Shown here: piece after piece, positions 11,755-46,642 of the stretch
How the letters are laid out: each line of letters starts with the position of its first letter
How positions within the stretch are numbered: position 1 is the stretch's first letter
NCBI GenBank assembly: GCA_004359435.1
Contig: PTET01000001.1
Span: 134,343 to 198,342 of the forward strand
DNA: 64,000 bases
Reading direction: 5' to 3'
From: Flavobacteriaceae bacterium
GTDB lineage: Bacteria > Bacteroidota > Bacteroidia > Flavobacteriales > Weeksellaceae
Position numbers and translations under genes: made by a program
The notes under the pieces: model-generated
What the model was told of the DNA's origin: nothing
The model's input: the letters and a program-made list of their open reading frames with translations, nothing else
Database searches by the model: none

Positions 11755-12174
11755 ATGATTGAGATTCTCCCCCACTCTTTCGAGATTAAAAATGAAGAAA
11801 AAATTATCCTTTGGATAGAAAAATGCATTTACTCAATCAATGAAAATGCAGAAATTGACTGTATTGAATACAACTTTTGCAGCGATGATGAACTCCTAAA
11901 AATAAACCTGGAGCACCTTTCTCACGATACCCTTACAGACATTATCAGCTTTGACAATTCTATAGGAGAAGAAATTCTATCGGGCGAGATCTTCATCAGC
12001 ATAGAAAGAGTAAAAGAAAACGCACAAATTTTTAACGTGAGCTTTGAACAAGAACTAAAGCGAGTCATGATCCACGGTGTTTTGCATTTTCTAGGACAGA
12101 AAGACAAAACAGAAGCGCAACAGGCTCAGATGACCCAAAAAGAAGAATATTGCCTATCTTTGTGGGAAGAATAA
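11755..12174 (+). CDS. ybeY: rRNA maturation endoribonuclease YbeY
   Basis: Metal-dependent endoribonuclease acting in 16S rRNA 3' maturation and ribosome quality control; 139 residues, normal length. The metal site motif is MIHGVLHFLGQKD; the third ligand position is a lysine/aspartate rather than the HxxxHxxGxDH histidine, as I remember for flavobacterial members. The conserved DTLTDIISFD motif precedes it. It is the third gene of a murF-alr/patatin/ybeY run, and a parS-like site begins right after its stop codon. Confidence 0.9.
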   Translation: MIEILPHSFEIKNEEKIILWIEKCIYSINENAEIDCIEYNFCSDDELLKINLEHLSHDTLTDIISFDNSIGEEILSGEIFISIERVKENAQIFNVSFEQELKRVMIHGVLHFLGQKDKTEAQQAQMTQKEEYCLSLWEE

Positions 12175-12190
12175 TGTTCCACGTGAAACA
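12175..12190. other. parS: parS-like centromere site 1
   Basis: TGTTCCACGTGAAACA fits the parS consensus TGTTNCACGTGAAACA at every position. Chromosomal ParB binds such sites, usually close to the replication origin. It fills the gap between the ybeY stop and the mnmG ATG (12197), so ParB bound here would also cover the mnmG start region. A second copy lies just after mnmG. Confidence 0.8.
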
Positions 12191-12196
12191 ATTTAT

Positions 12197-13839
12197 ATGT
12201 TTTTAAGTAAGTATGATGTGATAGTAGTAGGTGGCGGACACGCAGGTTGTGAAGCTTCGAGTTCTGCAGCCAAACTCGGTTCAAAGACGCTGCTAATTAC
12301 CATGAGCCTACAAAACATCGCGCAGATGTCTTGCAATCCTGCTATGGGAGGAATTGCCAAAGGACAAATCGTAAGAGAAATTGACGCGCTCGGCGGGCTG
12401 TCTGGCTACGTTACAGACCTAACGATGATTCAATTTAAAATGCTAAACCTCTCCAAAGGAGCCGCCATGTGGAGCCCAAGAGCCCAGTCTGACCGAATGA
12501 TGTTTGCACAGCTTTGGAGAAATTTACTAGAATCTATACCTAACTTAGACCTGTTTCAAGACAGCGTATCAGAAATAATCACAGAAAACGGCAAAGCGAT
12601 TGGGGTAAAAACCCAAATGGGACAAACCATCTATGCAAAAAGTGTAATACTTACCAATGGAACGTTTTTAAACGGAACCATACACATAGGAGAAAAACAG
12701 TTTTCAGGAGGAAGAATGGCAGAAAGCTCAGCCAAAGGAATCACAGAATCTTTAATCAACTTAGGATTTACCTCTGGAAGAATGAAAACAGGAACCCCTC
12801 CAAGGGTGGACGGACGGTCTTTAGACTACTCAAAAATGATAGAGCAGCCAGGAGACGAAAACCCAGGGAAATTCTCTTACATGCCTTCAAAAAAGCTAAA
12901 AAAACAAAGAAGCTGCTACATGTCTTATACCAGCGAAGAGGTTCATGACATCTTAAAAGAAGGGTTCGAAAAATCTCCTATGTTTACAGGTAGAATTCAA
13001 GGCATTGGCCCCAGATATTGCCCATCAATCGAAGACAAAATCAACCGCTTTGCAGACAAAGAAAGGCACCAGATTTTTGTAGAGCCCGAAGGATGGACCA
13101 CCTGCGAAACCTATATCAACGGATTCTCAACCTCTCTACCAGAAGAAACCCAAGCCAAAGCTCTTCGGAAAATTCCAGGCTTTGCGTTTGCTAAAATTTA
13201 CCGACCCGGTTATGCCATTGAGTACGACTTCTTCCCTCCTACCCAGCTCAAACACACCCTTGAAACCAAGCAAATAGAAAACTTATATTTTGCAGGGCAA
13301 ATCAACGGAACAACTGGATACGAAGAAGCCGCCTGCCAAGGACTTATGGCCGGAATCAATGCACACCTAAAAATCAACGAAAAAAAGCCACTAGTAATCG
13401 CAAGAGACCAAGGCTACATAGGGGTTCTGATAGACGACCTCATCACCAAAGGAACAGAAGAACCCTACAGAATGTTCACCTCGAGAGCTGAATACAGGAT
13501 TCTACTTCGACAAGACAACGCAGACGAAAGGTTGACTGAAATCGGCTACAATCTTGGCCTGGCAAGCCAAAAAAGATGGGAGAAAACCCAACAGAAATAC
13601 CAAAAAGCAGGTGATTTTAAAACTTTTATTGAAGAAACCTCTATCAAACCAGAAGAAGTAAATCATATTTTAGAAGAAAAAGGATCTGCCCTACTGAAAC
13701 AAAGCGTAAAATCGAGCACCGTATTGGCCAGGCCTCAAATCGAGATTGAGAACTTAATGAAACCATCGCACAAGCAAGCAGAATCAGCGGAGTCGCACCT
13801 TCTGATGTAAGCGTGCTGCTGGTTCATTTAGGAAGATGA
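12197..13839 (+). pseudogene. mnmG: tRNA uridine-5-carboxymethylaminomethyl enzyme MnmG, deleted and frameshifted near the C-terminus
   Basis: FAD protein that works with MnmE to modify U34 of tRNAs. Residues 1-520 are well conserved: the FAD fold VVGGGHAGCEA, CNPAMGGIAKGQIVREIDAL, and MFTSRAEYRILLRQDNAD. After ARPQIEIENLMK the frame runs out of register and stops at 13810 (537 residues). The true C-terminus TIAQASRISGVAPSDVSVLL is present in the next frame and ends at 13839. Members of this family carry about 70-85 residues between these two parts, which are absent here. So there is a deletion plus frameshift at about 13751-13762, which removes part of the helical domain that contacts MnmE and tRNA. 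Either a real lesion or an assembly error; flanked by parS-like sites. Confidence 0.85.
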
Positions 13840-13854
13840 GTTCCACGTGGAACC
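13839..13854. other. parS: parS-like centromere site 2
   Basis: AGTTCCACGTGGAACC contains the perfect 14-bp palindrome GTTCCACGTGGAAC, identical to the parS core except for the outermost bases. It starts at the last base of the natural mnmG stop codon and is about 1.66 kb from site 1. No other CACGTG in the window has the flanking GTTCC/GGAAC arms. Confidence 0.75.
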
Positions 13855-13902
13855 AAAGAAATTGGCATGATTATTGAAAAAACAACAGCAAACTATACGA
13901 TT

Positions 13903-14463
13903 ATGAAAAAAACCATCAAAAAAATCGCCAGCTTGGCGATAATTGGAGTCTTAATGGCTTCTTGCACAACCACACAAAAACCAGCCGAAGGAGCAGTATC
14001 TGCCTCTTCTCAACAAAGAAGCGTAGACGGAGAATGGACTTTAAGCTCTATCCAACACAACGCGTCCGGTAAGGTCGAAATTCAATATCTAGACGAAGGA
14101 AGAAAAGAATGTTTGGTTGGAAGCAAATGGGTTTTGATTAGAAACTACACAGGAACCTATACCATCAACCCTGGAGCAGGCTGTAACCCTGGAGACCAAA
14201 GCATCATGTGGAGCATAGAAGAGCTAGATGGACAAAATTATTTTATGTTCAAAAAACTAACAGATCAAAAAGCCAAAGACATTTTATCTGGATACAGATT
14301 ACACCTAGACTATGTAGACGAAACCAGCATGCAGCTGTCTCAAGAAATTCCATTTGAAGGAAGCAAAATCACCATTAAATATAAAAGCATACTTAGGAAG
14401 CCTAGGGGTTTCTGCGAGCAGAATCAAAACCAAAGGTTCTGGAGAATCTGCTCCTGCCTATAG
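13903..14463 (+). pseudogene. Lipocalin-like lipoprotein gene, 3' end fused to an ompA remnant
   Basis: The product starts MKKTIKKIASLAIIGVLMASC, a lipoprotein signal with the lipobox LMASC. Residues up to about 160 resemble the lipocalin-like lipoproteins of flavobacteria (DGEWTLSSIQHNASGK, RECLVGSKWVLIRNYTG, CNPGDQSIMWSIEELDG). The ATG at 13903 is preferred to 13867, which would put charged residues ahead of the signal. After ITIKYK the frame reads into the 3' end of an OmpA gene out of register (ILRKPRGFCEQNQ) and stops at 14463. In related genomes an OmpA gene follows this one, so a deletion of roughly a kilobase probably removed the end of this gene and most of ompA. Confidence 0.7.
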
Positions 14464-14560
14464 CAATTCAACGGTTGAAGGAAAAGCCAAAAACAGAAGA
14501 GTAGAGATTTTTATTGAAGCAAATGAAAAAATGATTCAAGACGCCAAAAATGGTCTATAA
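14378..14560 (+). pseudogene. C-terminal remnant of an OmpA-family lipoprotein
   Basis: In the frame one step from the lipocalin-like gene, about 60 residues match the end of an OmpA C-terminal peptidoglycan-binding domain: IKAYLGSLGVSASRIKTKG, then STVEGKAKNRRVEIFI and a short tail ending at 14560. The first part of the domain, the N-terminal region and the signal peptide are missing. It has no plausible start of its own (the ATG at 14354 lies in the neighbouring gene). A terminator follows, as expected at the true end of the gene. Confidence 0.75.
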
Positions 14561-22573: not shown

Positions 22574-23008
22574 TTATTTACAAGACATTTTGTCTATTCT
22601 ATTTTGATGCCTTCCACCTTCAAATTCAGTACTTATAAAAGCATCTACCATTTGTAAAGCAAGTTCTATAGATACAAATCTAGCAGGAATAGAAAGTACA
22701 TTAGCATTGTTGTGTTGTCTTGCGAGTTTGGCAATTTCTACTTCCCAGCAAAGGGCAGATCTAATTTCTTGGTGTTTGTTAGCAGTCATTGATGCTCCAT
22801 TTCCAGAACCACAAATGATAATACCCAAATCTGCTTTTTTGTTTACGACTTCTAAAACGGTTGGATGTACATAATCTGGATAATCCACACTTTGGGTATC
22901 AAAAGGACCTAAGTCTATCACTTGATTTCCTAATTTTTCTAAATGGGCTTTAATAATGGCTTTGTATTCTACACCTGCATGATCTGATCCGATGGAAAAT
23001 GTTGACAT
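22574..23008 (-). CDS. rpiB: Ribose-5-phosphate isomerase B
   Basis: Interconverts ribose 5-phosphate and ribulose 5-phosphate in the pentose phosphate pathway. 144 residues, normal length. The start FSIGSDHAGVEYKAIIKAHL and the catalytic cysteine in GIIICGSGNGASMTANK are diagnostic. It reads away from the 23.0-23.5 kb stretch, opposite to pgk, and rnr follows after 3 bases. Confidence 0.93.
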   Translation of the reverse strand: MSTFSIGSDHAGVEYKAIIKAHLEKLGNQVIDLGPFDTQSVDYPDYVHPTVLEVVNKKADLGIIICGSGNGASMTANKHQEIRSALCWEVEIAKLARQHNNANVLSIPARFVSIELALQMVDAFISTEFEGGRHQNRIDKMSCK

Positions 23009-23539
23009 ATAGATTTTTAATTTTACGGTTGATATCTTAGATAATAAACTTGAAAGCTTCTTGGTAATTTGTTGAACAAAAATGAAAACTTTTTCAAAAA
23101 AAAGACTTCGATTTCATTTAGAAATAGATATATAAAGTTTTGGTAAAAAACCAAAAAAAGATTTAACAAGTTATAGAAAAACTCTTCCTATTGTTATCAA
23201 CAAAATTAAGGAATATAATCCATAAACAATCATTTATTCACAATTAACAAATATTGTTGATAAAACCAGATTATTACCTATTAACAGTAACAACCATGCA
23301 AGTAAAATTGTGAAAAAAATTGTAAAACTATTTCTTTTGAGTTCTTATAAACATTTCAACAAGCCTAACATACACAACAGTTTTACTTTTTAAAAAAATT
23401 CAAATAAAAAATATATAATAATAAATTGTTAACTGTTTATCAAGAAATCAAAATAGGATGTGAATATAGATTAGTTTTATTCAATAGATTAGATTGATTT
23501 TTTGCCTAAATTTGTAAATAGATTTAATGAAAACTACTG
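23009..23539. other. oriC: Gene-free AT-rich region, candidate replication origin
   Basis: The only gene-free stretch above 300 bases. It is strongly AT-rich, with no ORF or RNA that I recognise. It holds DnaA-box-like motifs within 124 bases: TTATCAACA (23194-23202), TTATTCACA (23234-23242, fits TTWTNCACA), TTATCAACA on the minus strand (23255-23263) and TTTTTCACA on the minus strand (23309-23317, fits TTWTNCACA). A further variant TTATCAAGA is at 23437. An A/T-only tract around 23390-23430 could be an unwinding element. The flanking genes diverge (rpiB minus, pgk plus), and two parS-like sites lie about 10 kb away. No dnaA gene is seen here. It could instead be just a long pgk/rpiB regulatory region. 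Confidence 0.5.
23507..23514 (+). promoter_or_regulatory. -7 box for pgk
   Basis: TAAATTTG matches TAnnTTTG and ends 25 bases before the pgk ATG. No clear -33 TTG at the right distance. Confidence 0.5.
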
Positions 23540-24727
23540 ATGCAAAACATACAATCTTATAATTTCAAAGATAAAAAAGCCATTGTTCGGGTTGATTTTA
23601 ATGTACCTCTTGACGATACATTTAACATAGAAGATCCAACCAGAATTACTTCTGCTCTTCCAACGATCAATCATATTTTAAATAGTGGAGGAAGCGTAAT
23701 TTTACTTTCTCACTTAGGTAGACCCGAGGGTGAAAAAAATATGGATTTTTCTTTTTCTCATTTGCTATCTCAGATGGAAAAATTAATTGGTAAACCGATT
23801 CTATTTTCTTCTGATTGTATTGGAGAAGAAGCAGATCAGAAAAAACAAGCCTTAAAGCCAGGTGAAATTTTGATGATGGAGAATGTAAGATTCTATACCC
23901 AAGAAACAAAGGGAGATATGGATTTTGCCAAAGAGCTTTCTAAACATGCAGATGTTTATGTAAATGATGCTTTTGGTGCGGCACACAGAAGTCATGCTTC
24001 AACTACCCAAATGGCTAATTTTTTTGATGATAAATTATTTGGTTTTTTGATGGAGAAAGAGCTTTTGGCCATCGAAAAAGTATTAAAAACAGGAGAAAAA
24101 CCTATTACCGCTATCATTGGAGGAGCCAAAGTTTCTTCTAAAATTACCATCATAGAAAATATACTTCCGGTAATCGATCATTTGATTATTGGTGGCGGAA
24201 TGATTTTTACTTTCATCAAAGCCATGGGAGGAAAAATAGGAACTTCTTTGGTAGAAGATGACAAAATGGAACTCGCACTTTCTCTTTTAGAAAAAGCCAA
24301 AGAAAATAATGTAAAAGTATTAATGCCCGTTGATGTAATCGCTGCCGACGCTTTTTCTAATCAGGCAAATACACAAATTGTTTCATCTTCAGAAATTCCA
24401 GAAAATTGGATGGGTCTAGATGTTGGACCCAAAACCAATCAGGAGGTTCAAAAGATAATTGAAATGTCTAAAACCATTCTTTGGAACGGACCGATGGGAG
24501 TTTTTGAGTTGCCTATTTTTGCTCAAGGAACAAAAAGTTTAGGAGATGCCATTGCAGAAGCTACCCAAAAAGGAGCCTTTTCTTTGGTTGGAGGAGGAGA
24601 TTCTGTCTCTGCTGCTCTGCAAATGGGACTCAGAGATAAAGTGAGTTATATTTCAACTGGAGGAGGAGCTATGCTAGAAAGTTTAGAAGGAAAAGCTTTG
24701 CCTGGTGTAAAAGCCATTCTGTCTTAA
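23540..24727 (+). CDS. pgk: Phosphoglycerate kinase
   Basis: Transfers phosphate between 1,3-bisphosphoglycerate and ADP in glycolysis/gluconeogenesis. 395 residues, family length, with all landmarks: KKAIVRVDFNVPLDD, the substrate-binding LLSHLGRPEG, NDAFGAAHRSHASTT, the nucleotide site IIGGAKVSSKI, and SLVGGGDSVSAALQMG near the end. Transcribed away from the candidate origin; separated from moxR by a 57-base gap without an obvious terminator. No damage. Confidence 0.96.
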   Translation: MQNIQSYNFKDKKAIVRVDFNVPLDDTFNIEDPTRITSALPTINHILNSGGSVILLSHLGRPEGEKNMDFSFSHLLSQMEKLIGKPILFSSDCIGEEADQKKQALKPGEILMMENVRFYTQETKGDMDFAKELSKHADVYVNDAFGAAHRSHASTTQMANFFDDKLFGFLMEKELLAIEKVLKTGEKPITAIIGGAKVSSKITIIENILPVIDHLIIGGGMIFTFIKAMGGKIGTSLVEDDKMELALSLLEKAKENNVKVLMPVDVIAADAFSNQANTQIVSSSEIPENWMGLDVGPKTNQEVQKIIEMSKTILWNGPMGVFELPIFAQGTKSLGDAIAEATQKGAFSLVGGGDSVSAALQMGLRDKVSYISTGGGAMLESLEGKALPGVKAILS

Positions 24728-24784: not shown

Positions 24785-25784
24785 ATGAATCCAGAACAAA
24801 CTTTAGATCCAAACCAAGAAGGTTCGTCTTATACTCCCCAAATTAATCCTCAACAGCTCTTTCAGGGAGAAGTGAGACTCTATAGCCAAAAAATTCAAGA
24901 CCTAATCCAAGAAATCAACAAGGTTATCATCGGACAAGATTATATGGTAGAATCTCTGTTGATTGGTCTATTGTCTGGTGGACATGTACTTTTGGAAGGA
25001 CTTCCGGGTCTGGCCAAAACTTTGGCCATCAATACACTAGCAAAAGCTGTTTCTGGTAAATTTTCCAGAATTCAGTTTACCCCAGATCTCATGCCTGCAG
25101 ATGTGGTTGGAACGCTCATTTTCAATATGAAAGAAAACGAATTTGAGATCAAAAAAGGTCCTATTTTTGCCAATTTCGTTCTGGCAGATGAAATCAACAG
25201 AGCACCGGCCAAAGTTCAGTCTGCTCTTTTGGAAGCCATGCAAGAAAAGCAGGTAACCATTGGAGATCAAACCAATCGACCAAGAAGGAACCTATACCTT
25301 GCCAGAGGCTCAAGCAGATAGATTTATGCTCAAATGTTCAATTCAGTACCCAAGTCTAGAAGACGAGCGAATTATCATGCGTAAAAACGTAGAGCAATCT
25401 TTTGAAAAGGTTGAAAGCGTTTTGGATCTTAACACCATTTTAAAAAGTAGAGAGTTGGTTCGGGGCATTTTTATGGAAGAAAAGGTAGAAAAATACATTT
25501 TGGACATTGTTTTTGCTACCCGATACCCCGAAAAATATGGACTTTCTGAACTAAAACCGCTTATTTCATACGGAGGATCTCCAAGGGCAAGCATCAATTT
25601 GGCTTTGGCCTCTAGAGCCCATGCCTTTATTAACGGAAGAGCTTATGTAACTCCAGAAGATGTTCGACTGATCGCCAAAAATGTGCTAAGACACAGAATT
25701 GGTACCAGCTTTGAAGCCGAGGCAGAGAATATATTTTCTGAAAATATCATCGATAAAATCATCGATAAAATTCAAGTTCCTTGA
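24785..25784 (+). pseudogene. moxR: MoxR AAA+ ATPase of the bat operon, short deletion and frameshift
   Basis: MoxR ATPases act as chaperones with the VWA-domain Bat proteins. The first part (to about 25268) has Walker A GLPGLAKT, Walker [23 protein letters not shown] and then GDQT. The second part resumes in another frame at [20 protein letters not shown] and runs to a normal C-terminus (VLRHRIGTSFEAEAEN). About 14 residues (the sensor 1 strand, usually ending LATQN) are absent at 25268-25274, and the frame is shifted. As written no full-length ATPase can be made; the first ORF ends at 25321. It is the first gene of the bat operon, 23 bases before the DUF58 gene. Confidence 0.88.
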
Positions 25785-45384: not shown

Positions 45385-46642
45385 ATGAAAAAAATTCTCT
45401 ACTCTAAATTTTGGTTGGTACTTTGGGTACTGGGCTTTGCTTTTGCGGGTGCGCAAACCAAACCAGCTAAGCCCGTGAGTAATGGGGACAAGATGTATTG
45501 CAAGTCGGACGCTAGGTTTCCAGATTTATCCGTACAGGCACCCACAGACGCAACGGTGGTTGCCACCAAATGGAATCTGGTTGCACCTATTGACGCTGCA
45601 ATAAAGAATTCTATTACAGGCTTGCCTATATATAAAAAAGGAGATATTATTCCTACTTTGTATGATGGAAGCGTTCCAGTAAATATAGAAAAAACAGGGC
45701 TAACGTATAATTTTTCTGATATCACCAATAATTCAGGTCAATCTTCGACTCCGAGCACTCTTACCCATTCAGAACTAACCTTTGCAGTTTGGAACGAAAA
45801 TGCAGCGGGTGTTCCAAGTGATTACACTTTTGTAAAAATGTCGGTTGAAACTTTTCCAGAGTTAACACCAGACCCACTCAAAACTTTTTGTTCAATCAAA
45901 GAAAACATAACGCTAAAGGTAACTCCCAAAACTGCCCTTAAAACTGGACAACAGATTGTTTGGTATTTAGACGACAATGAACATCTGGAAAAAAACTCCT
46001 TTGGGAGGAGGTGCCAGCGTTCTATTGTACCCAAACAACACTCCAACTTTTGAAGCGGCCTCCGAAGGAATTTTTTCACTAGAAATAATTTACAAAGAAC
46101 AAGGGGTAGGGACAACTAGTTATTACCCACCCATTAGAAGTGTTGGTCAAATGAAGGTAAATTATACTGGTCTGTCCATTGTAAAGACGCCTGTTAAATG
46201 TACCAGCCAAACCATTCTTACCACTAACAGTGAATTTAAACCGGTAACCATTACCGTGGACGGAAGGCAGTTTACAGACCAAGTAGATTTTAAACAATTT
46301 GAAACAGGGGTTTATCAAGTTTCTTTAGAGGATAGTTTTGGTTGCACTTTAGAAAAAGAAGTAGATTTTGTAAAAAACATCTCTGTTCCTACCTATTTTA
46401 GCCCCAATGGAGATAACATCAACGATACATGGCAGCCCAATTTGGCAGATTGTGGATCTAAAGTTAGAATCGCGATTTATGATCGATATGCCCATTTGGT
46501 GTTTACCGGAGGCCCAACCGATCCTTGGGACGGAACCAAAAATGGGGTAGAAATGCCAGAGGGAGACTACTGGTTTATCGCTAGGTTTAACGACAGCGAA
46601 CAGCAACTCCTTAAAGGAAACATAACACTAAAAAGAAGATAG
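45385..46642 (+). pseudogene. T9SS type B sorting-domain protein, one-base frameshift in an A tract
   Basis: Secreted surface protein of about 418 residues if the frame is restored. A signal peptide (LVLWVLGFAFAGAQT) leads a set of Ig/PKD-like repeats. The end has the type B sorting domain (gliding-motility-type, CHU_C): YFSPNGDNINDTWQPNL, VRIAIYDRYAHLVFTGG, WDGTKNGVEMPEGDYWF and NITLKRR. Frame 1 stops at 46053, frame 2 starts at 45977. Removing one A from the seven-A run at 45989-45995 rejoins them as HLEKTPLGGGASVLLY. The PorP/SprF gene follows, the normal partner of type B cargo. Confidence 0.85.

Follow-up and report, generated by a model that had tools for sequence, protein, structure and literature searches.

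The tRNA modification gene mnmG (gidA) is flanked by two palindromes in the 64,000-nucleotide stretch of Flavobacteriaceae DNA analysed here (the window), which raises the question whether they are the parS centromere of this chromosome or elements serving the gene that they enclose. A preliminary description of the window had placed a parS-like palindrome just before the mnmG start and another at its stop, and both were confirmed at their positions (Table 1). The first ends 6 bp ahead of the ATG at 12197 and follows directly on the ybeY stop at 12174. The second lies at the mnmG stop if the homologous stop codon (TGA, 13837-13839) is taken; the mechanically called reading frame (537 aa) ends at 13810. 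It stops early because mnmG has an internal deletion of about 226 bp and a frameshift near 13757 in this assembly, with the residues corresponding to approximately 521-596 of its relatives absent. The spacing of the two sites is 1665 bp here compared to about 1.89 kb in relatives, a shrinkage of the size of the mnmG deletion, which is either real or an assembly error. In five relatives examined at 60 kb, ybeY adjoins mnmG as well. Overlapping adjacent open reading frames that resemble single genes split by frameshifts were seen at 13867-14500, 24785-25784 and 45385-46642, which suggests an indel-prone assembly or gene decay.

Table 1. Features around the two parS sites and the candidate origin (positions in the window).
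Feature	Position	Strand	Remarks
ybeY (rRNA maturation RNase)	11755..12174	+	upstream of site 1; NCBIfam TIGR00043 over cut-off
parS site 1, TGTTCCACGTGAAACA	12175..12190	.	ybeY-mnmG gap; exact match to the 16-bp consensus TGTTYCACGTGRAACA
mnmG (gidA), tRNA modification	12197..13839	+	between the parS sites; NCBIfam TIGR00136, 745.6 bits
parS site 2, GTTCCACGTGGAAC	13840..13853	.	directly 3' of the mnmG stop codon; exact 14-bp core
rpiB	22574..23008	-	left neighbour of candidate oriC; NCBIfam TIGR01120 over cut-off
candidate oriC	23009..23539	.	531-bp rpiB-pgk gap, 21% GC, 5 DnaA-box-like 9-mers
pgk (phosphoglycerate kinase)	23540..24727	+	right neighbour of candidate oriC; kinase part of the bifunctional model NF010569, 501 bits, which is below the cut-off of that model

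Scanning the window with TGTTYCACGTGRAACA and allowing up to two mismatches returned only the sites at 12175 and 13840, with 0.07 matches expected from shuffled sequences; the site at 13840 has an exact core and two outer mismatches. The exact 14-bp core occurs twice in the whole genome, both times here, 1.66 kb apart, compared to about 0.018 matches per genome expected from base composition. A reversed-motif control gave no match genome-wide, and the next-best place in the genome differs from the 16-mer at two positions, and its centre is not intact. Similar palindromes scattered over the genome would have spoken against the parS reading; instead, the only two lie at mnmG. The genome is a single binned one (MAG) of 1.65 Mb in five contigs, with frameshifts and incomplete coverage, and since it is only 83% complete, further parS sites could be missing from it.

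A parS site requires a ParB that reads it, and the lack of a chromosomal ParB homologue had been named as a finding that would undermine the proposal. The window was correctly described as free of parAB; a single parA-parB operon is located at 622.3-623.9 kb of contig C1 (G000:C1:622.3-623.9 kb), approximately 475 kb from the parS sites. The protein encoded at C1:623 kb (TIGR00180, 183 bits) is the only ParB in the genome. Directly upstream lies the gene for a ParA-type ATPase of 257 aa with a KGGVGKTT motif, which was assigned by sequence motif and position. Structure matches of the ParB include Spo0J from B. subtilis (6sdk, E 1e-53) and ParB 6t1f; Noc structures align too. According to Jalal et al. 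(PMC7383237), ParB proteins conserve R173 and G201, whereas Noc has other residues at both positions. The comparison made here found the equivalents of the parS-contact residues R173, N178, G201 and R204 as well as GERRFRA (the GERR motif) kept in this ParB, and the aligned ParBs of relatives retain R173 and G201 together with N178, R204 and GERR. The retention of the specificity residues R173 and G201 indicates that the genome encodes a parS-reading ParB. Together with the genome-wide rarity of the palindromes, this chromosomal ParB supports the interpretation of the palindromes as parS.

Chromosomal parS sites normally lie close to the replication origin, and in several bacteria mnmG does so too. 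The cumulative GC-skew minimum of the window is at 23500, and the AT-richest 400 bp of the window fall into the same rpiB-pgk gap. This gap contains five relaxed DnaA boxes (TTWTHMACA) versus 0.61 expected under a first-order model (P 0.001). The boxes are relaxed matches of which only the local cluster is significant; a search for the strict box at one mismatch showed no enrichment over the whole window (18 versus 17 expected). From the skew minimum, the AT-rich stretch and the DnaA-box cluster, 23009-23539 is a probable oriC, and a distance of 9.7-11.3 kb separates the parS sites from it, in support of origin proximity. The GC skew of this MAG is weak, with the wrong sign in some 20-kb stretches, and dnaA is located on contig C2 and not beside the candidate oriC; adjacency of dnaA is common and not required. 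In gut bacteria, the origin has been located by parS and skew and reportedly does not always coincide with dnaA (PMC10197239).

Relatives give a similar picture. In the single-contig genome G020 the skew sign switches between 994 and 1136 kb; the fine minimum (1032.5 kb) lies next to rpiB-pgk, and the parS sites are at 1046.9 and 1048.8 kb. The skew minimum of G038 (1457.5 kb) is at rpiB-pgk too, with parS at 1436-1438 kb, so that parS and skew minimum are 14-22 kb apart in these two genomes. A local minimum was found 16 kb from the parS sites of G046. Local minima were sought within 60 kb, so any minimum found there lies at most approximately 30 kb away by construction; for this reason the weak minima of G007 and G048, which agree only loosely and fix the origin poorly, were not counted as proof.

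The mnmG-parS arrangement is conserved in the order as a whole and in large parts of the phylum. The exact core was found in 53 of 59 related genomes, 43 of which have at least two sites. We fetched 20 Flavobacteriales loci that had been chosen for carrying at least two parS matches, and in 19 of them parS sites directly flank mnmG at both ends; in the exception (G013) the upstream site is approximately 4 kb further out. In Flavobacteriales, no more than some tens of bp separate the upstream site from the mnmG start. In most loci with a full mnmG frame, the downstream site begins 0-11 bp beyond the stop, and in some relatives it shares the G of the TAG stop codon. Conservation is confined to the 14-bp core and the A/T edge next to it; the flanks vary. 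At 80 named Bacteroidota mnmG loci, the exact core was present at most 500 bp upstream in 56 and just downstream in 20, the latter nearly all from Flavobacteriales, and the reversed motif was found at none. Sphingobacteriales, Chitinophagales and Cytophagales often have tandem parS sites, upstream of mnmG only. Altogether, 230 of 248 genomes of a phylum-wide sample contain the core, and the reversed motif is rare. Two genomes (G037 and G052; L094, L095) have an expanded set of 7-9 parS copies each, located around mnmG.

Some lineages have parS elsewhere. In Saprospirales (L323, L324, L326, L327, L328) mnmG is unflanked and the pair is located beside a gene for an M1-type peptidase; in four of the five genomes its other neighbour is threonine synthase. 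This peptidase locus is a second, lineage-specific parS address. Two Hymenobacter genomes have parS approximately 30 kb from an equally unflanked mnmG; the gene names at the Saprospirales and Hymenobacter loci were taken from reading translations. Since parS sits at other loci in these lineages, it is movable like a centromere and not an obligate mnmG operator. A search of the whole Tenacibaculum finnmarkense genome (L195) that tolerated one mismatch did not find the parS core, and none was found in two MAGs. Genome G024 has no exact core and carries three one-mismatch sites within 3 kb (L267:5361, 6177 and 8346), 4-7 kb from pgk and away from mnmG, each with its mismatch located centrally within one half-site. 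Co-variation of variant sites (those of G024, and CACATG in family f11) with ParB was considered and rejected, as the ParBs of G024 and G045 both retain R173 and G201.

Taken from the sequence, the two sites are in all likelihood the ParB-loading parS centromere of this chromosome, a reading that draws on the sites themselves, their rarity and conservation, the presence of cognate genes for ParA and ParB, and the proximity to the origin by skew. Against it stand the weak GC skew of the MAG, the large distance between parAB and parS and the missing core in Tenacibaculum finnmarkense. ParB binding, spreading and origin movement would follow by analogy with known ParABS biology. ParB dimers made from the parAB operon would load at both parS sites and presumably act as CTP-dependent clamps that slide onto adjacent DNA including mnmG. 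ParA would then move the ParB-parS complex, so that sister origins part soon after replication starts approximately 10 kb away.

The placement at both ends of a gene might also point to operators, with ParB or another dimeric regulator controlling transcription from both mnmG ends and the pairing kept for that reason. The strict spacing in Flavobacteriales would fit such control, and in P. aeruginosa mild ParB overproduction can silence genes near the parS cluster (PMC7022226). We regard operators as improbable, because other Bacteroidota retain the upstream site only, often in tandem, and because the shifts to other loci in Saprospirales and Hymenobacter fit a centromere. The preliminary description had also raised the speculative idea that ParB spreading could silence mnmG or ybeY; that a housekeeping gene has stayed between the sites in an entire order argues against strong silencing. 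That parS stays with mnmG is most probably due to mnmG being an origin-proximal anchor that rarely moves, and not to regulation by ParB. Site 2 might be read as the transcription terminator of mnmG since it sits directly after the stop codon; this is very unlikely for a perfect palindrome without a loop and with no T run after it in the window, whose strictly fixed core recurs upstream of mnmG. Nothing was found in favour of palindromes arisen by chance or of binding sites for some other factor that recognises CACGTG. Both are practically dismissed by two cores at one place where about 0.02 per genome are expected, by the ParB with matching specificity residues and by the phylum-wide conservation, which already refutes them.

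Chromosomal parS sites of B. subtilis, Caulobacter and Corynebacterium are likewise palindromes of 14-16 bp, present in few copies and clustered near the origin, with a cognate ParA and a ParB carrying the parS-specific residues. In contrast to those systems, parAB is linked here neither to parS nor to oriC, and the sites flank mnmG on both sides. parAB usually neighbours parS, unlike in the Flavobacteriales studied here: in single-contig relatives the two are separated by approximately 1.36 Mb of 2.84 Mb (G020), 1.18 of 3.07 Mb (G038), 0.70 of 3.94 Mb (G007) and 0.17 of 1.92 Mb (G046). Many bacteria have a gidA-gidB-parA-parB cluster at the origin. The locus resembles it in having mnmG and parS near the origin, but only these two are together here, with parAB and dnaA elsewhere.

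A further difference to those ParABS systems is that Smc-ScpAB was not detected in the relatives. Family profile searches, in which positive controls worked, found ScpA in 0 of 59 and ScpB in 0 of 59 relatives, and no SMC protein over the family cut-off in any of the 59; the MksE-like family PF13835 was found in two. An Smc-ScpAB loading centre presupposes that this complex is encoded, and it was not detected in the relatives searched. The centromere thus seems to be without its usual Smc-ScpAB partner, and its usual second role, loading of this complex, is either missing or served by a different partner. A 2023 report on two gut Bacteroidetes, B. caecimuris and M. intestinale, likewise describes parS clusters near a skew-defined origin that is not always at dnaA, and without a known condensin (PMC10197239). 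It covers two strains, and mnmG is not mentioned in the parts consulted. The lack of a known condensin reported there is now extended to an order. If Bacteroidota have a ParB-parS centromere without a known condensin, the parS pair at mnmG might load an SMC-like complex of a new type or belong to a ParABS mode needing none, which we put forward as a tentative idea with rather low expectation. Judged by record descriptions, we found no publications linking parS to mnmG/gidA in Bacteroidota, which does not in itself prove novelty.

The parS pair at mnmG is very probably a genuine and orderly feature, basically of a known kind, and it shows where the origin region of this genome lies. The data suggest that parS beside mnmG could serve as a simple origin marker in many Bacteroidota, where dnaA is sometimes a poor guide. 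The 59 genomes retain ParABS where Smc-ScpAB is undetectable, and this makes a standing question directly testable, namely which role ParB has there besides its work with ParA.
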